From the NCBI GenBank assembly GCA_031082125.1, contig JAVHLM010000004.1, forward strand, positions 249,042 through 291,813: DNA of 42,772 nucleotides, given 5' to 3'. The stretch comes from Candidatus Eremiobacterota bacterium (GTDB lineage: Bacteria; Vulcanimicrobiota; CADAWZ01; Ess09-12). The position numbers were made by a program, and so were the translations under genes. Below, in pieces: positions 12,678 through 42,671 of the stretch (position 1 is the first letter of the stretch; every line of letters starts with the position of its first letter). Below the pieces are notes generated by a model. It did no database searches and was not told where the DNA came from. It saw nothing but the letters and a program-made list of their open reading frames with translations.

Positions 12678-12848
12678 TCCGTGTTCCTCCTCTTTGGGAG
12701 CCTCTCGCTATCGTCGGCCTGAGGTCAGTCGCTCAGGGTACCCGCTCCCCTGTTTTCTCTATTTGACAGGGGAAGGGTCATTCCCTTCACAGGCGTCACA
12801 GGAGAAGGAATTTTGCCACCCGGGGGGAGAATGGGGAAGGAAGGCGGT

Positions 12849-14651
12849 ATGATGAAACTGGTAAAAGGCTCTCTTGTGAACGAGCGGTACGAGGTCGATT
12901 CCCCCATCAAGTCAGGGGGGATGGGCGCTGTGTACAAGGCATTTGACACGCATTTCCGGCGCCGCGAGGTGGCACTCAAGGAGATGCTCCAGGAGTTTTC
13001 CTCCCAGGAGACCTTTGAGCTGGTGAAAAAGAAATTCGAGGAAGAGGCCAACATCCTTGTGATACTGAATCACCGTGGTATCCCAAGGGTGATAGATTAT
13101 TTCACCGTGAGCGGCGTATGCTATATCGTGATGGATTTCATCGAGGGAACAAACCTGGAAAAGCTTGTCGATGAATACCTCAGCCTCACTGGAAAGCCTG
13201 TGCCCGAATACCTTGCAGCTGAATACGCCGTGCAGATATGCGAGGTCCTTCACTACCTCCACAGCCACAAGCCCAATCCCATCATCCACAGGGATGTCAA
13301 GCCCGGAAACATCATACTCCACAAGAAGTCCAGGGAGGTGTTCCTGGTGGATTTCGGCCTCGCAAGGGGTATTGACAGCCAGTCCCTGAGCACCAAGACG
13401 CTTGTGGGCACCGTGGGCTATGCCCCCCTGGAGCAGTTCAAGGGAAAGCCCGATACAAGATCCGATATTTACGGCCTGGGCGCAACGATGCACCATCTTA
13501 TTTCAGGGAAACGGCCGGCGCCTTTGGCCATTGAGCCTCTTGAATCGGTTTATCCCCAGGCCAACAGCAGGCTCGCAGCGATAGTGGACAGGGCCATCGC
13601 GGAAAATCCCGACGACCGCTTCCAGACAGTGCTCGACTTCAAGGATGCCCTCGTGGAGGTGCTGCCGGCCCTCAGGAAGATGGAAGCCGATGACGCGGAA
13701 AAGGCGCCCCGAAATGAGGAAAACGGGGTTCCCACAAAGGTCGCCGCCGAAAAGAGAATGGAGCCTGCCCTCCGCCATGATGGCAGGACTTACGCCGATG
13801 ATTCTATTGATGAGCGCGTCCGGCCTGCCGGGAGTAAGGAAGCTGCGGTTGGAACGTCGGGATGGTGGACTGCCAGGAATTATCTCGCGGCCGGCGCTCT
13901 GCTGCTTGTGCTTCTCCTGGCGGCGTTCCTGGTGAAATTGACGGCGGGGCATGGGGGAGTGGCCGGGAAAAAGGATCGCGCCATGTACACCCTCTTCGAT
14001 GCCCTTGATAGAGAGATGGCAGCAGACCTCTGGGATTTTCTCGGCGAATACGGTGAAGTGCAGAATGACGAGAGGGGCTTGGTGCTCCTGGTCCCGAAAA
14101 GCGAGGGGGCGGGGATGGGCTATCACCGCTCAGCCTTTGTCTTTGCCGCTTCCCGGGAAGCTCTCACTCCCGGAGAAATCACCTTCAAACTGCGGTTTAG
14201 CGAGCAGAAGGCCGGCACCTTCATCTTTTTCTGGGGCTCCGAAGAGGGCCCCTCTCTGGGCGTTGAGCTCATCGATACCAGGGGCATTGAGGAAGCGGGG
14301 AAATACTCCGCCAGGTTTGTGCACTATGAAAAGGGCCTCTCCTTTGAAGAGCTCCGCAAAGCCGCGAAGGATCAGCTCCTCACCGGAATGGGCTTCAACC
14401 CGGCGGAAGGTCCTGACAGCAAAGGATCCTATCCCTCTGATAAGGTTCTCAAAGATGCCATGAGGTGGAAAATCAGCTTCCGCGGCGAAAGACCCGAAGC
14501 GGTATTTCTCCTGAACGATGACCGGCTGTGCGCCCTTGATCTCCCGCCGGGTCTTGAAAAAATACGCTATTTCGGCATGATGCTCGATAGAGACGAGGCC
14601 TTTCCCTCATCGCGGGCGGAAGCGCGGGAACTCAGGATATCGCCGAGGTGA
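12849..14651 (+). CDS. Transmembrane Ser/Thr protein kinase with extracytoplasmic beta-rich domain
   Basis: An N-terminal Hanks kinase domain (about residues 14-275) has the glycine loop SGGMGAVYK, K44, the HRDVKPGN loop with D149, and DFG with D168, so it should be active. A charged linker leads to a single membrane helix near residues 345-367. The outer domain of about 230 residues contains patterns such as ITFKLRFSEQKAGTFIFFW and RWKISFRGERPEAVFLLND, which resemble a concanavalin/LamG-type sandwich; that assignment is inference. ATG 12849 follows GGAAGG. ATG 12831 and a TTG at 12813 with a good SD are in-frame alternatives. The probable job is to pass an outside signal to cytoplasmic phosphorylation. 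Confidence 0.9.
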   Translation: MMKLVKGSLVNERYEVDSPIKSGGMGAVYKAFDTHFRRREVALKEMLQEFSSQETFELVKKKFEEEANILVILNHRGIPRVIDYFTVSGVCYIVMDFIEGTNLEKLVDEYLSLTGKPVPEYLAAEYAVQICEVLHYLHSHKPNPIIHRDVKPGNIILHKKSREVFLVDFGLARGIDSQSLSTKTLVGTVGYAPLEQFKGKPDTRSDIYGLGATMHHLISGKRPAPLAIEPLESVYPQANSRLAAIVDRAIAENPDDRFQTVLDFKDALVEVLPALRKMEADDAEKAPRNEENGVPTKVAAEKRMEPALRHDGRTYADDSIDERVRPAGSKEAAVGTSGWWTARNYLAAGALLLVLLLAAFLVKLTAGHGGVAGKKDRAMYTLFDALDREMAADLWDFLGEYGEVQNDERGLVLLVPKSEGAGMGYHRSAFVFAASREALTPGEITFKLRFSEQKAGTFIFFWGSEEGPSLGVELIDTRGIEEAGKYSARFVHYEKGLSFEELRKAAKDQLLTGMGFNPAEGPDSKGSYPSDKVLKDAMRWKISFRGERPEAVFLLNDDRLCALDLPPGLEKIRYFGMMLDRDEAFPSSRAEARELRISPR

Positions 14652-35207: not shown

Positions 35208-37565
35208 ATGGATACACATGAGACCCATTCTATCTCCAATATGTTCCTCCCTGATGAAGAAGAGCTTCTTCACCTCGGTGATTCGCTTTCTTCACAGGAC
35301 TGCGAGGATATGCTCCTCCTCCCGGAGCCTTATGAGCTTCCCGCGGAGGGGCCCTGCAGGCCTGAGCACCTCGTCAAAATCACCAGGGAAGGCCTCATCC
35401 CCGAAGCGGAAAGGCTCACCGGGGACATCACCTTCGGCTCAATCGACAGGGATGAGCGGGCATCACGGATCGATTTCACCCTCTGTGAGGCAGTCCGCGG
35501 CCGCCAGGCGCTGGACATTGTGCTTGGGGGCCTTCTTGTCACTCTTAAAACGAAAGGGGTTGATCAGTTAGGATACCGCTCCATGGGAGTCTTCGCCACG
35601 GAGCATCTCTCGTTCTCGGGGCGCACCGCGTCGGAGCTGATGCACAATTTCCGGCTCCTCAAGGTGCTCCCCCTCACCCGGGAGGCTTATCTTGAGGGAA
35701 AAATCGCGAAGAGCGCCCTGAGATCTCTCTCGAGGGTCATCACGCCTCAGAACGAGTCCTGGTGGCTCGCCGTTGCAGAGGTGCGATCCCTGTGCGGTCT
35801 TGAGCGGGAAGTGAAAAGGGCCCTCGCCTCTGGGAGTGCCGCATTGGCGGCCCCTTCCGCCGATGCTTCCGAAGACGGTGACGGGGGCACGATGATGTAT
35901 TTCAGCGTGGCGCCCTCACTTGCCCTCACCTGGGATTTCGCCCTGTCCCTCTTCAGGGACAGGGAGCATTATGACGGGCCGCTCTCAGGCTTTGTGGAGG
36001 CGCTCCTTGCAAACTTCCTGGCCTCGGGGGAAGCCGCTCCGGAGCTTCCGGCGCTAGATGCCGAGGGGAACCGCCCCCTCTTCTCCCGGGTGCCTCTTTT
36101 AAAGAGGAGGATGGGAAACCGTCGCATCAGCGATCCCGACGAGGCCGGCGGGGAGCAGACCGGCGGCTCTCCCTGGGAGCTGCCCTGGAGCATCCATTTC
36201 CCATCGTGGCTGGAAGAGGTCCGGACGGAAAGAGAGGCCGGGGGCTCCGCCAGGGCGATTGCGAATCGCCTCATCAGGGCCGCTTCAATCCGACAGAGGC
36301 TCGACGTGGCGACAGGGATGCTCCTGCGGGCAATGGACGAGAGGCGGCTCCATTGCCTTCTCGGCTATCAGTTCATCGAGGACTACGCCGGGGAGCGCTG
36401 CGGCTTCTCGATGGCCCAGACCCGCCAGCTCATAAGGCTCGCCGAGGGCTTCCACCGCCACTCCCTCACCGATAAGGCCTTTAAAGAGGGCACCATCACC
36501 AGGGAGCAGGCCCGCCTCATTCTGCCTCTTGTTGACTCCAGGAATGAATCGCAATGGATCGCCTATGCGGCAAGCGTGCCCACTGTTGACCTCAGGGAAG
36601 AAGCCCGGCGCATCGGGAGAATCCTGGAATATGACTGCCTTGCTTCACACAATTTTATGATTCTTCCCGGCTTCCGCTATGTCACTGACGAGAGGTTTCA
36701 CGACCTGCCGGAGGAGGTGCAGGTCCTCATAAGGAGCGGGTCCTGGTATACAGGCCCTTCCCTCAATCCTTCGTGGCCTCTTGAGTCAGATGACGAGGAG
36801 CTCGTCGCTTCCCGCGACAGGCGCTTTGATGCGCCCTGGAAGTATTTCAACGATGTTGATGAGATGAGGGCCTCCGAGGCTTCCCATGAAATTGAAAGAA
36901 ATTCGCGCCTGTGTGCGGGGCTCGCAGCACCTCAGAACCAGGGGCAGGATTCTGAGTCAGCCCTCTGTGCAGCTGAAAAGGCCCGGGAGCTCTGCACCAT
37001 GCCCCGGGGCGAGGGCCCCGAGGAGACTTTCCTTGTGGATATCCTCTCGGCGGGAAATCCCTCGCAGGCGGCAGGGGGCTCCATGATGATAAAATTCTTT
37101 CTCCCCCGGGAGCTTGAGAGGGTCTGGAACCTGGCAGCCCATGCCTTTCTCGCTCGTCTTGCCCTGGCGGAAGGCGCCGAGAGCCTCAAGAGCCCTGAAG
37201 AAAATTTCCTTGCGGCGCTCCTTGCCGACTATCTCAAGACCGAGGGAACCTTGAAAAAAGCGGCCCATCATCACAAAATCCTGAAAAGGGACCGGTTCCG
37301 CTGCCAGATCCCGGGCTGCCGCTGCAGGCGGGGCCTCCACGTTCATCATATCATCAGGCGCTCCCAGGGCGGCACCGATGACGAGTGGAACCTCATCGTG
37401 CTCTGTGAAGCCTGCCATCTGCACCTCCTCCACGGACTTCGGACCCTCACCGTGAAGGGCAGGGCGCCCGACTGCCTCACCTTCACCTTCGGCTCTCTCT
37501 CGGAAGGCACCCCTTTCCTGGTCTATGAAAAGGGGCTCCTGACGCGGATTCCGGCGATTCCATAA
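35208..37565 (+). CDS. HNH endonuclease protein with duplicated DUF222-like body
   Basis: The 785-residue protein ends with an HNH nuclease domain (about 690-745). LHVHHIIRR supplies the His pair, EWNLIVLCEACHLHLLHG the Asn and final His, and CQIPGC with CEAC a probable structural zinc site. The body is duplicated. Residues about 93-275 and 358-678 share a helical module (KSALRSLSRVITPQNESWWL versus EQARLILPLVDSRNESQWI) and then a GG-T/S-MM...W...FL-ALLA-x-L module. This resembles the DUF222/13E12 HNH family of multicopy genes thought to be mobile or selfish. The substrate is unknown. Start ATG 35208 has no SD; ATG 35244 is an alternative. Confidence 0.88.
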   Translation: MDTHETHSISNMFLPDEEELLHLGDSLSSQDCEDMLLLPEPYELPAEGPCRPEHLVKITREGLIPEAERLTGDITFGSIDRDERASRIDFTLCEAVRGRQALDIVLGGLLVTLKTKGVDQLGYRSMGVFATEHLSFSGRTASELMHNFRLLKVLPLTREAYLEGKIAKSALRSLSRVITPQNESWWLAVAEVRSLCGLEREVKRALASGSAALAAPSADASEDGDGGTMMYFSVAPSLALTWDFALSLFRDREHYDGPLSGFVEALLANFLASGEAAPELPALDAEGNRPLFSRVPLLKRRMGNRRISDPDEAGGEQTGGSPWELPWSIHFPSWLEEVRTEREAGGSARAIANRLIRAASIRQRLDVATGMLLRAMDERRLHCLLGYQFIEDYAGERCGFSMAQTRQLIRLAEGFHRHSLTDKAFKEGTITREQARLILPLVDSRNESQWIAYAASVPTVDLREEARRIGRILEYDCLASHNFMILPGFRYVTDERFHDLPEEVQVLIRSGSWYTGPSLNPSWPLESDDEELVASRDRRFDAPWKYFNDVDEMRASEASHEIERNSRLCAGLAAPQNQGQDSESALCAAEKARELCTMPRGEGPEETFLVDILSAGNPSQAAGGSMMIKFFLPRELERVWNLAAHAFLARLALAEGAESLKSPEENFLAALLADYLKTEGTLKKAAHHHKILKRDRFRCQIPGCRCRRGLHVHHIIRRSQGGTDDEWNLIVLCEACHLHLLHGLRTLTVKGRAPDCLTFTFGSLSEGTPFLVYEKGLLTRIPAIP

Positions 37566-38709: not shown

Positions 38710-39237
38710 TTACCGCCTGAGATTCTCCGGGATGCGGCGCACCACCACGAGGGCCAGGGCAATCTTCACTGCATCGCCGGGGAGAAAGGGCACAAGGCCC
38801 GTCATCAGCGCCGCAGAGAAGCTCATGTGGGTCACGAAGGCGAGCTGCGCCACACCGCATGCATAGATTGCCGCAGTGCCCGCAATGAGTGCCGCTAAAA
38901 GCCGTGGAATGTCATTTTTGCTGCCGGCGATGACTCCTATGATAAGGCTCCCCGCAATGAAGCCCCAGAGATAGCCGCCTGTAGGGCCGAAGAGCACTGC
39001 AAGCCCCGCGGCGCCCCCCGAGAAAACAGGGAAATTGAAGGCGCCCATCACCACGTAGAGAGCCTGCGAGAGCGGCCCCAGAAAAGGCCCCAGCAGGAGG
39101 CCCGACAGCATCGTGAAGAGGGACTGGAGGGTGAGGGGCACCAGGCCGAAGGGGAGAGGGACCGAAAGAAATCCCCCGAGCGCCGTGAGGCTCGCAAAAA
39201 GTGCCGTGCGGATGATATCTCTTGCGGAAAGCTTCAT
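38710..39237 (-). CDS. bioY: Biotin transporter S component BioY
   Basis: The 175-residue membrane protein has about six helices and the BioY motifs SVPLPFGLVPLTLQSLF, GPFLGPLSQALYVVMGAFN, FPVFSGGAAG and FGPTGGYLWGF. BioY binds biotin and works alone or with the shared ECF module (EcfT and two ATPases), which is not in this window. ATG 39237 has the SD TTGAGG at the right spacing and gives the normal family length; an open frame to 39507 overlaps the kinase gene and is not used. Lying 17 bp after a kinase gene is unusual for BioY. Confidence 0.95.
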   Translation of the reverse strand: MKLSARDIIRTALFASLTALGGFLSVPLPFGLVPLTLQSLFTMLSGLLLGPFLGPLSQALYVVMGAFNFPVFSGGAAGLAVLFGPTGGYLWGFIAGSLIIGVIAGSKNDIPRLLAALIAGTAAIYACGVAQLAFVTHMSFSAALMTGLVPFLPGDAVKIALALVVVRRIPENLRR

Positions 39238-39254: not shown

Positions 39255-40604
39255 CTACAGGAAAAACCACGTGAGGAGGCTCGAGACGACACCCAGGCCC
39301 ACCGAGGCCGCCAGGGAATTTTTCTGCTCGTGGCGCTCGTCGTCGGAAAGCAGGAAATAGGTGACGAGCGTGCCCGGTATGCCCACAAAGGGGATGACGC
39401 CGATGGATACCATGGAATAGGCCATGGCATCCCGGGGAAGGGCAAACTCCCACCATTTCCTCTCCACCCTCACCCTGAGGGGCACCTGCACCGTATCGCC
39501 CTCCCACTCAAGGAAGATATCGCCAAGGTAGCTGAAGGCCTTTTTCTGGCCACCCACGTCCACTGTTATCTCTATTACCTGGTGATTGCTGGTGAAGTGG
39601 GCCGGCAGCAGCTTCACCCAGTCCCTGTTCGAAGAGAGGGACGCCGCCAATGTCCCGCCGCCCCTGTTTTCCACCTTGAATAGTATTGTCACGGGATCGC
39701 GCACCGCATTGAGGGCCAGATCTATCCTGTCAGGCGTGACGACGGGATTGGCAGTCACCGTCGAGGGCACTGACTCGTGGGAGAGGAGGGCCGTCGCCCC
39801 TGACTGGAGAGCTTTCCTCAAATCCAGGGTGCTCTGGAACCTTTTTTCAGGATCGAGCGAGAGGGCCTTGAGGACCACCGAGTCCCACAGCGGCGGGAGC
39901 GCATGGTTTATGCTTGACGGCATCCTGAAGGAGAGGGGCGTCATCGAGGGGTCATCCTTCGTGACAAGATAATAGATGGTGGCTCCCAGGCTGTAGATAT
40001 CAGACCGCATGTCCGTCTGGCCCCTGCCGTACTGCTCAGGCGGCGCGAAGCCCGGCGTGCCGAGGATCAGGGTGTCCTTCTGCTTGCCCTGGGTGAAGAG
40101 GCGCGCTATCCCGAAATCTATGAGCTTCAGGTGCCCTCCCGCCGTGACGATGATGTTGCCCGGCTTGAGATCCCTGAATATGATGGGAGGGTTCTGGCTG
40201 TGAAGGTAATGGAGGCAGTCGCAGAGGGCAAAGACCCAGCCCTTCACCTTTTCAAGGTCCAGAAATCCGGGGCTCTTCCCGATGGCCTCGTCAAGGGTAT
40301 CGCCTTCGATAAGCTCCATCACGAGGTAGTAGCGTCCCTTCTCTTCGAAAAAGTCGGCCACCCTGGGGAGGTTGGCATGGGAGAGCCTGGTGAGAAGGCT
40401 CGCCTCGAACCTGAACTGCTCCACTGCCCTCTCCAGGTCTTCACGGTCAGTGAAATAACAGTTCATCTCCTTGAGGGCCCAGGTGGTGCCCTCGAGGCGC
40501 CGGTCTTTCACGCGGTACACCGAGGCCATGCCGCCCTGGCCCAGGGTTGAGACCACCTCGTATCTTTCCTGCAGGAGCGCTCCTGCATCAAGGGGCGACG
40601 TCAT
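39255..40604 (-). CDS. Ser/Thr kinase with BACON-like domain and two membrane helices
   Basis: Residues about 15-275 are a Hanks kinase: glycine loop GQGGMASVY, K45, catalytic loop IIFRDLKPGN (D145, K147, N150) and DFG (D163). The His of HRD is Phe143. Residues about 310-405 form a BACON-like or Ig-like beta domain (VTILFKVENRGGGTLAASLS, then DWVKLLPAHFTS). Two membrane helices close the protein (about 400-450). No helix lies between the kinase and the beta domain, so both should be cytoplasmic. The ATG is 1 bp past the upstream kinase stop, with AAGGAG inside that gene, indicating coupled translation. It should be active, since the Asp, Lys and Asn are kept. Confidence 0.92.
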   Translation of the reverse strand: MTSPLDAGALLQERYEVVSTLGQGGMASVYRVKDRRLEGTTWALKEMNCYFTDREDLERAVEQFRFEASLLTRLSHANLPRVADFFEEKGRYYLVMELIEGDTLDEAIGKSPGFLDLEKVKGWVFALCDCLHYLHSQNPPIIFRDLKPGNIIVTAGGHLKLIDFGIARLFTQGKQKDTLILGTPGFAPPEQYGRGQTDMRSDIYSLGATIYYLVTKDDPSMTPLSFRMPSSINHALPPLWDSVVLKALSLDPEKRFQSTLDLRKALQSGATALLSHESVPSTVTANPVVTPDRIDLALNAVRDPVTILFKVENRGGGTLAASLSSNRDWVKLLPAHFTSNHQVIEITVDVGGQKKAFSYLGDIFLEWEGDTVQVPLRVRVERKWWEFALPRDAMAYSMVSIGVIPFVGIPGTLVTYFLLSDDERHEQKNSLAASVGLGVVSSLLTWFFL

Positions 40605-42671
40605 TTAGGCAGGCTCCTTGTTCCGGCTTTTTGCCGCGAGGAGCAGCAGTTTGTCCTTGATCAGGGAGAGAGGCGCCAGGGCGATAAGAAAGGAGAAGAG
40701 CGCAAGCATGACGACCACCTTGAGGCAGGCAGAATAATCCTCGGGAAGCATGGTAACCATGCTCCACGAGGGATACTGGTTTGTGCACGGCAGGGAGCGC
40801 GTGAGAAAAAAGTCGGCGCATCCCTCTGAGAGAAGGCTATAAAGTGTGAAGATCAGAAAGCCGCCTTTGAGATCGCTCTGCGTCTCGGCAAGACGGGGAA
40901 GCATGCAGGTCACAAGAAAGTGAAACACGAGAAAGAGCAGGGGCAGGGCAAAATATGCAGGCAGATTCACCGCTACCTGGTACACCTTGTGCTGAGGCGG
41001 CAAATACATCGTATCAGGAGAGCGTATAGCTCCAAGAAAAGCCGGGAGAATTGCAAGCATCAGCAGCCCTACAAGGAGAAAGCCATAGCGCCTCTGGGAG
41101 GGGAGGAAAAGCCTGCCGTAAAGAAGGGCGAGTATCAGGGGGAAGGCCATTTTTCCCACCATGAAGACGGCACCCGACACCATGAAATTGGGTCCCCAGA
41201 CTGCAGGCCCGCTCAGGTAGCCGTTCAGGATGATAGGCCAGAAGACGGCCATTATGATGGCGAAGAGAAAGAAAGAGACGTGGGGTATGAGGAAAAGGGT
41301 TTTCTTCTGCCGCCCCGGGAGGTCCGTGAAGAAGTTGAGCATGGTCTGGTAAAGCAGAAAGGGAATAAACATCGTGGGAAAGATCGAGAGATCCAGGAGC
41401 TGCATGAAGGTGCTGTATCCAAGGCCCGCTGTCTGGTTGAAAAAGCTGAAGAATACGATGTTGAGCCCCAGGATCGCAAGGGGGAGAGCCAGGATGATTG
41501 ATGCCACCGCCCCGTCGGAGATGCGGTGATACCAGGGAAGGGTGAGCCGTGCCCTTACGGGAATTGAGCGCTTTTCCCGGTCAGTGGTGACGGTGACTGC
41601 CGCCTCCTCCTCTTTGGACTGGACCAGGGCGGCAAGATCAATCACAAGCGAGAGGGCCGTGTCATTACCCTCTACCTCCCCGGGCGAGACAGAAAGCCAC
41701 GGCGCCGATGAATGGACCCTGGCCTTGAGGGTCCCGCCTCCGGCGTTGTAAAGGCGCAATGCCGCTTCTTTCTTTCCGCTGCGGGGAAGATCGGAGAGCT
41801 CGATCTCCTTGAGATCGGTGGCAGGGCGGGGGAGAGCCTCTCCTGCGTCTTCCAGGGAGATCTCCCCCAGCAGAACCTTCATGACTGTCGAGGCATTGTG
41901 GAACCTGGCCTGCGGCGAGAGCTCCACGCATTTCGCGATGAGGGCCTCGAGTTTCTCTGATACGGAGGGATTGAGGGATCTCACGGGCGGGAATGAGAAG
42001 GGCGCCTCGCCCGGGTCACGGGCGGTGAGAAGGCAGTGGAGGGTGGCGCCGAAGGCGTAAATATCGGTGCGCTCGTCAGACTGGGCGCTTCCGTACTGCT
42101 CGGGAGCGGCAAAGCCCGGTGTGCCCATCATGAGAGTGTCGCGGCCCTTGCCCATCACGAATTTCCTCGCGATTCCCACGTCTATGATCCGCAATGAGCC
42201 GTTCTGGGTCATCAGCAGGTTTCCCGGCTTGATGTCGCGGACTATAAGGGAGCCGTGCTCCTGGCCATGAAGAAACACAAGCAGCTCCAGGAGCTGCAGG
42301 GCGCACTCCCTCACGAATGCCTCATCAAGAGGGCCGCCCTTCCTTCTCATGAGCTCATCGAGGGTCTCGCCCTCGAGATAGTCCCTCACGAGGTAATGAA
42401 CGGGGCCTTCGGTGAAATGGTCATAAATGCGGGGCAGGCGCTGATGGGTAATCTTCGAGAGGATCTCCACTTCATTGGAGAGCTGGGAGAGGAGCGCCTC
42501 ATGGTCCCCCGGCGGCGCCTGGGCGAAAGAGACTTCCTTCACGGCCCTATTTGCCCCGCCAAGGTTGAGATCCTCTGCCAGGTAAACCTTTGACCACCCG
42601 CCTTTGCCGAGAACTCTGGCAAGGCGGTAGCGGTTCCTCAATAGTGCGCCATCCTGTTCCGGTTCTGCCAT
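40605..42671 (-). CDS. Ser/Thr kinase with BACON-like domain and polytopic membrane region
   Basis: From ATG 42671 the protein has 688 residues. The kinase domain has GKGGWSKVY, K45, IVRDIKPGN (D146, K148, N151) and DVG (D164). Here the HRD His is Val144, and DFG is DVG. A BACON-like domain (about 310-405: LRLYNAGGGTLKARVHSSAP, then WLSVSP) is followed by seven or eight membrane helices to the C-terminus. A kinase fused to such a large membrane region is unusual; the membrane part could be a sensor or transporter-like. I chose 42671 because GGGGGAGGG lies five bases upstream; ATGs at 42743 and 42704 are in frame without an SD. It heads the minus-strand operon. Confidence 0.9.
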   Translation of the reverse strand: MAEPEQDGALLRNRYRLARVLGKGGWSKVYLAEDLNLGGANRAVKEVSFAQAPPGDHEALLSQLSNEVEILSKITHQRLPRIYDHFTEGPVHYLVRDYLEGETLDELMRRKGGPLDEAFVRECALQLLELLVFLHGQEHGSLIVRDIKPGNLLMTQNGSLRIIDVGIARKFVMGKGRDTLMMGTPGFAAPEQYGSAQSDERTDIYAFGATLHCLLTARDPGEAPFSFPPVRSLNPSVSEKLEALIAKCVELSPQARFHNASTVMKVLLGEISLEDAGEALPRPATDLKEIELSDLPRSGKKEAALRLYNAGGGTLKARVHSSAPWLSVSPGEVEGNDTALSLVIDLAALVQSKEEEAAVTVTTDREKRSIPVRARLTLPWYHRISDGAVASIILALPLAILGLNIVFFSFFNQTAGLGYSTFMQLLDLSIFPTMFIPFLLYQTMLNFFTDLPGRQKKTLFLIPHVSFFLFAIIMAVFWPIILNGYLSGPAVWGPNFMVSGAVFMVGKMAFPLILALLYGRLFLPSQRRYGFLLVGLLMLAILPAFLGAIRSPDTMYLPPQHKVYQVAVNLPAYFALPLLFLVFHFLVTCMLPRLAETQSDLKGGFLIFTLYSLLSEGCADFFLTRSLPCTNQYPSWSMVTMLPEDYSACLKVVVMLALFSFLIALAPLSLIKDKLLLLAAKSRNKEPA

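Follow-up and report, generated by a model that had tools for sequence, protein, structure and literature searches.

The closest described systems are the PASTA kinases PknB, PrkC and Stk1, in which an N-terminal Hanks-type kinase domain is combined with a membrane anchor, and the PrkC-PrpC and Stk1-Stp1 operons, in which a kinase gene is accompanied by the gene of a PP2C phosphatase. The accessible text of PMC12599244 also describes bacterial pseudokinase families of membrane-linked kinase-fold proteins with regulatory roles, and defines a pseudokinase by the loss of the beta3 Lys, the HRD Asp or the DFG Asp. Here, we compare with these systems a pair of kinase genes, K1 and K2, in a window of 42,772 nucleotides from a Candidatus Eremiobacterota bacterium (contig C4, 249042-291813; genome G000). 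Encoded on the minus strand, the pair closes the window, whose last base is also that of the contig. K1 and K2 resemble the PASTA kinases in the N-terminal Hanks-type kinase domain and the membrane anchor; the best Foldseek matches of the K2 model are Stk1 of S. aureus and PknI, PknA and PknB of M. tuberculosis, and within NCBIfam the PknB model scores best. However, they differ in carrying a beta domain on the kinase side, before the membrane part, and no PASTA domain by Pfam, and their scores against the PknB/PASTA model NF033483 (197 and 151 bits; cut-off 450) place them outside this class. The window pair differs from the kinase-phosphatase operons in that the partner is a second kinase; no PP2C was found beside it by Pfam or by a PP2C profile, which among the fetched loci matched only G000:C7.

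K1 (40605..42671, minus strand; 688 aa) consists of a kinase domain, an Ig-like domain and eight membrane helices, and K2 (39255..40604, minus strand; 449 aa) of a kinase domain, an Ig-like domain and two membrane helices. The order of kinase, BACON-like domain and membrane helices given in the earlier note holds in both proteins. In the following, alpha denotes the K2 architecture (kinase-Ig-2TM) and beta that of K1 (kinase-Ig with eight to nine helices). Both genes are real, as shown by their matches to the Pfam Pkinase family (PF00069; 1.9e-33 for K1, 1.2e-41 for K2). The K1 frame is open upstream to the contig end for about 100 bases, and the ATG at 42671 appears to be the best start, based on the Shine-Dalgarno sequence GGGGGAGGG and the alignment with the K2 start. 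At the junction (GCC TAA ATG) the K1 stop codon abuts the K2 start codon; the two genes are adjacent, as had been noted, with an intergenic gap of zero bases instead of the one base claimed. Because of this zero-gap junction and because a Shine-Dalgarno sequence, AAGGAG, lies within K1 nine bases ahead of the K2 ATG (coupling site 40602..40619, minus strand), translation of K2 is probably coupled to that of K1. We also considered that stop-codon read-through fuses K1 and K2, which lie in one frame, and rejected this: a paralogous pair on contig C25 is likewise in one frame, yet has 18 bases between its genes and a Shine-Dalgarno sequence of its own, so that the frame shared by K1 and K2 looks like chance.

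Downstream, 17 bases past K2, lies bioY (38710..39237, minus strand; PF02632, 5.1e-43), which encodes a biotin ECF S-component, and a 194-aa gene without a Pfam match begins 3 bases after bioY; BioY is probably on the K1-K2 transcript. This close succession of genes, and the fact that it is the sole BioY of the genome, would fit a pair that controls biotin uptake. However, G015, a genome with a related pair, has no BioY, only G000 and G030 among eight genomes searched have one, and the association of kinase and BioY is not conserved, making such a function very improbable. Apart from the pair, the window holds a third kinase gene (12813-14651, plus strand; 612 aa; PF00069, 4.7e-35), a 785-aa protein with a C-terminal HNH domain (35208-37565, plus strand) that is internally repeated by appearance and matches an IscB model weakly and in the HNH part only (43.8 of 175 bits), and, at 1-712, a low-complexity open frame that is mostly a Gly-Gln-Met repeat.

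The kinase domains of K1 (41871..42650, minus strand; model pLDDT mostly >90) and K2 (39804..40583, minus strand) both keep the Gly loop, the beta3 Lys, the alphaC Glu, the HRD Asp with the following Lys and Asn, and the DFG Asp in the alignment, and their APE regions read APPEQYG and AAPEQYG, respectively. With every motif from the Gly loop to APE present and Pfam in agreement, K1 and K2 are, by sequence, Hanks-type Ser/Thr kinases. K2 has FRD in place of HRD (40170..40178, minus strand) and an ordinary DFG, while K1 has VRD (42234..42242, minus strand) and DVG (42174..42182, minus strand). These replacements, with Lys, Asp and Asn retained, had been described in the earlier note and are all seen in the alignment. 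The importance that it attached to the loss of the His does not stand up to the survey of HRD variants for which it had called. A contig scan with kinase-motif patterns, which returned mostly plain kinases, provided the rows for a motif census and for structure prediction. In this genome, YRD (36), FRD (35) and HRD (33) are found in similar numbers in an alignment of 138 rows from 137 ORFs, and among 108 kinase domains in loci of other organisms, a set that leans to the K2 subfamily because the loci were chosen by likeness to the K2 family, FRD (44) and YRD (40) outnumber HRD (15). Phe or Tyr is accordingly the majority state in the genome and in relatives, and the two censuses rule out the altered HRD as a novelty. 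The His occupies a regulatory-spine position at which human catalytic kinases can have Tyr (AGC kinases, e.g. AKT1) or Phe (LRRK1) (PMC10401967). Because Phe and Tyr are common at this position in both censuses and occur in human catalytic kinases, K2 is ordinary. K1 is unusual: it has Val at two regulatory-spine positions with every catalytic residue kept, and as read from the alignment neither VRD nor DVG recurs in any other of the 138 rows of the genome.

Between the kinase domain and the membrane part, the AlphaFold models place Ig-like strands at residues 293-381 of K2 and about 300-375 of K1 (pLDDT mostly 75-94), which in both models form, with good confidence, a predicted beta sandwich of about seven strands and about 90 residues. 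We delimit this BACON/ASH-type domain to 41541..41810 in K1 and to 39462..39728 in K2 (minus strand in both; pLDDT about 71-92 in K2) by these strands and by our own HMM, a profile grown from the K1 and K2 copies. K1 matches the Pfam BACON model below threshold (11.5 bits, cut-off 25; E=0.31) and K2 has no BACON match in Pfam. At the level of the family, matches to DUF5717_N (up to 3.7e-14), HYDIN-Ig (4.3e-8) and BACON_2 (2.6e-6) were obtained, as well as to HYDIN/CFA65 Ig, Cep192 and ASH models and, with the profile, to a domain of PDB 4zmh (1e-4); copies of relatives pass the DUF5717_N and HYDIN-Ig cut-offs, whereas those of K1 and K2 themselves remain below every curated cut-off. Given the weak match of K1, the lack of one in K2 and the restriction of the better matches to the family level, BACON-like is a fair description, and membership in BACON is not established.

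The position of this domain relative to the membrane was predicted from hydropathy and charge. Between the kinase domain and the membrane part, 19-residue hydropathy peaks at 0.96 in K1 and 0.77 in K2, far below the threshold of 1.6 for a helix, and the earlier claim that no helix separates kinase and beta domain is borne out. In K1, eight membrane helices (40677..41516, minus strand) are supported by relaxed hydropathy, model helices and the positive-inside count, the last of which also fits a cytoplasmic Ig-like domain and a C-terminus on the inside; in K2 there are two hydrophobic helices (39258..39434, minus strand). The membrane parts are unlike, as the earlier note had proposed with two versus seven or eight helices, and both lie in low-confidence parts of the models (pLDDT <70 in K1). 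In K2 relatives, positive charges are conserved in the loop joining the two helices, which fits poorly with an outside loop. A search of PDB sequences with the Ig-like domain and membrane part of K1 gave a single, useless match (E=2.1), and we found no convincing homologue of the eight-helix part. BACON domains of secreted proteins are extracytoplasmic, whereas by topology prediction the Ig-like domains of K1 and K2 are on the cytoplasmic side, together with the kinase. This cytoplasmic side had been proposed before, in line with the prediction; the oddity ascribed to it disappears within the genome, in which eight kinase-fold proteins carry the domain by profile search, always between kinase and membrane part and in no case with a helix between kinase and Ig-like domain. 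HYDIN, Cep192 and ASH domains are domains of intracellular proteins, and a cytoplasmic site is therefore not strange for this Ig-like fold.

A search of the phylum with K2, in draft assemblies and without selection on the partner, found full-length alpha proteins at 14 loci: three in this genome (the window, C7 and C25), two in G015, and one each in G006, G012, G018, G024, G028, G030, G032, G034 and G036. At all 14 loci, which share descent and do not represent independent events, a second kinase-domain gene adjoins alpha on the same strand, with one small ORF in between in G024. The partner is downstream of alpha at 13 loci and upstream only in the window, where beta comes first. At three loci (the window, the paralogous C25 and, in another family, G015:C273) the partner is a beta protein with eight to nine helices, and at the other 11 it is a protein with a zinc ribbon, a pseudokinase and a PP2C domain. 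Thus, K1-K2 is, judged by gene neighbourhood, a variant of a two-gene kinase unit that recurs throughout the phylum, and the idea of a paired unit in the earlier note gains support from the 14 loci and from the three at which the K1 and K2 lineages are paired. Solitary beta-type proteins exist as well, in most cases pseudokinases (C15, C23, L164-L168) and in one case intact (C44); contig C38 begins with a K2-clade kinase that lacks the Ig domain and, on the visible side, is not flanked by another kinase, and an alpha-like kinase outside the phylum (L174, Deltaproteobacteria bin23) has no kinase neighbour. In this last locus (L174:5620-9260), the alpha-like kinase-Ig gene and the end of an open frame of 788 aa with six helices overlap.

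Several related architectures were also seen. Stand-alone pseudokinase-Ig-multi-helix proteins that have lost HRD are kept across families of the phylum (L142:2428-4272, L084:1646-4636, L164:8872-10575, L165:7808-9583, L166:300-2195, L167:6814-8655, L168:7702-9438). Two kinase-Ig-9TM proteins of about 1330 aa (L089:783-4763, L111:1015-5019) have about 600 C-terminal residues that match no Pfam family. G000 contains five more tandem kinase pairs with overlapping frames (C33, C36, C4:54457-57446, C8:89541-92883, C7:145579-149044).

The 11 PP2C-type partners have a kinase fold and a C-terminal PP2C domain by our PP2C profile. A zinc ribbon was present in 4/4 scanned against Pfam, at least one catalytic motif of the kinase domain was lost in 9/9 checked, and the phosphatase motifs were intact in 7/7 checked. 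Searching with such a partner returned 22 proteins of this type, at least 17 of them with an adjoining alpha; others are at truncated loci, and in G007 alpha was not seen. Loci that were reached by way of the partner, in G026, G143-G146 and G148, are outside the count of 14. The unit of an active kinase-Ig-2TM protein and a zinc-ribbon-pseudokinase-PP2C protein is thereby recorded at at least 17 loci (L123:3347-6621, i.e. G000:C7:108346-111620; L156-L163, L277, L278, L287-L306). These sister loci resemble the PrkC-PrpC and Stk1-Stp1 operons in combining an alpha kinase with a PP2C gene and differ from them in the fusion of a zinc ribbon and a pseudokinase to the phosphatase; in being pseudokinases, the partners are like the families of PMC12599244, although in its accessible text the zinc-ribbon-pseudokinase-PP2C family was not found. 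A literature search on BACON with kinase and on bacterial pseudokinase-PP2C fusions returned nothing on point. The unit is seemingly undescribed, and it is perhaps more interesting than the window pair.

K1 and K2 are 33% identical. In an IQ-TREE phylogeny built on kinase and Ig columns, K2 clades with the paired alpha proteins from C25 and G015:C273 (99/99), the partners of PP2C type form a single clade (100/99), and K1 groups with beta proteins (89/84), which places it in the beta lineage with moderate confidence; a FastTree of all kinases, in which K1 joins three intact beta proteins (0.87), suggests the same lineage, within which its exact position is unsure. On these phylogenies, K1 and K2 belong to distinct kinase lineages and did not arise by a recent local duplication. 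The beta proteins with K1 are sister, weakly (83/76), to a pseudokinase-Ig-multiTM group. This placement, the loss of catalytic motifs in the proteins closest to K1 in architecture (kinase fold, Ig, 3-6 helices: C15, C23, L164-L168) and the uniqueness of the two spine Val residues would be expected if K1 were catalytically dead and exerted only allosteric control over K2, as would the plain pseudokinase partners in sister loci. By the residues that define a pseudokinase in the accessible text of PMC12599244, K1 was rejected as one and K1 and K2 both differ from those families, as beta3 Lys, HRD Asp and DFG Asp are all kept; with the Asn and the Gly loop present as well, we consider an effectively dead K1 improbable.

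We prefer to read the pair as a heteromeric membrane kinase with K2 as the catalytic chain and K1 as an eight-helix sensor or regulator; contact, sensing and division of labour are given an even chance. The TAA-ATG coupling, the internal Shine-Dalgarno sequence, the pairing at every alpha locus in contrast to only eight tandem pairs among the 137 kinases of this genome, the recurrence of alpha with beta, the lineage trees, the PP2C-type partners, the absence of a helix ahead of the Ig-like domain, the complete catalytic residues of K2 and the two Val residues of K1 speak for this reading; the reversed gene order in the window, the solitary beta proteins, the moderate grouping of K1, the lack of a convincing homologue of its helices, the charged loop of K2 relatives and the unpaired C38 and L174 kinases speak against it. 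In the main competing account, each of K1 and K2 acts independently as a homodimer like PknB or PrkC; the two membrane kinases came to share an operon after shuffling, and their adjacency only balances expression. PknB-type kinases homodimerise, both proteins have full catalytic residues, solitary beta-type kinases exist, and this genome encodes about 137 kinases and has eight tandem pairs, all of which such an arrangement would accommodate. By contrast, the different lineages of K1 and K2 and the pairing of alpha with partners of different kinds at 14/14 loci argue against it, and we hold independent kinases to be rather unlikely.

If K1 and K2 form a heteromer, two membrane Hanks-type Ser/Thr kinases from separate lineages, kept and translated as a unit, would assemble into a hetero-oligomer in the membrane. 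Signal sensing, within the membrane or across it, would fall to the eight-helix part of K1, and the Ig-like domains would be cytoplasmic docking or dimerisation modules beside the membrane, the likely contacts at its inner face. K2, with complete motifs, would carry out most of the phosphorylation, whereas K1, with Val at two spine positions, may act mainly as an activator or regulator. Because the partner at sister loci is a pseudokinase fused to an intact PP2C domain, the general scheme may be that of a catalytic membrane kinase with a regulatory kinase-fold partner. More tentatively, and with less confidence than for the window pair, we suggest a two-chain bacterial receptor Ser/Thr kinase family in which alpha is obligatorily paired with an eight- or nine-helix sensor kinase or with a zinc-ribbon-pseudokinase-PP2C protein, such that the kinase or pseudokinase partner gates the kinase, or a kinase-phosphatase switch, throughout the phylum.

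In bacteria, a Ser/Thr kinase is usually examined as a single receptor alongside a free-standing phosphatase. In the loci described here, a second kinase fold, often dead and fused to a phosphatase, consistently accompanies a kinase, and this pairing appears to be undescribed. The analysis also corrects a likely misreading, in that Phe or Tyr commonly replaces the His of HRD in this kinase group and should not be read as altered function; the consistent pairing, rather than the altered HRD, is the interesting part. Pseudokinase regulation of active kinases in bacteria thereby becomes directly testable with small gene pairs that can be co-expressed.
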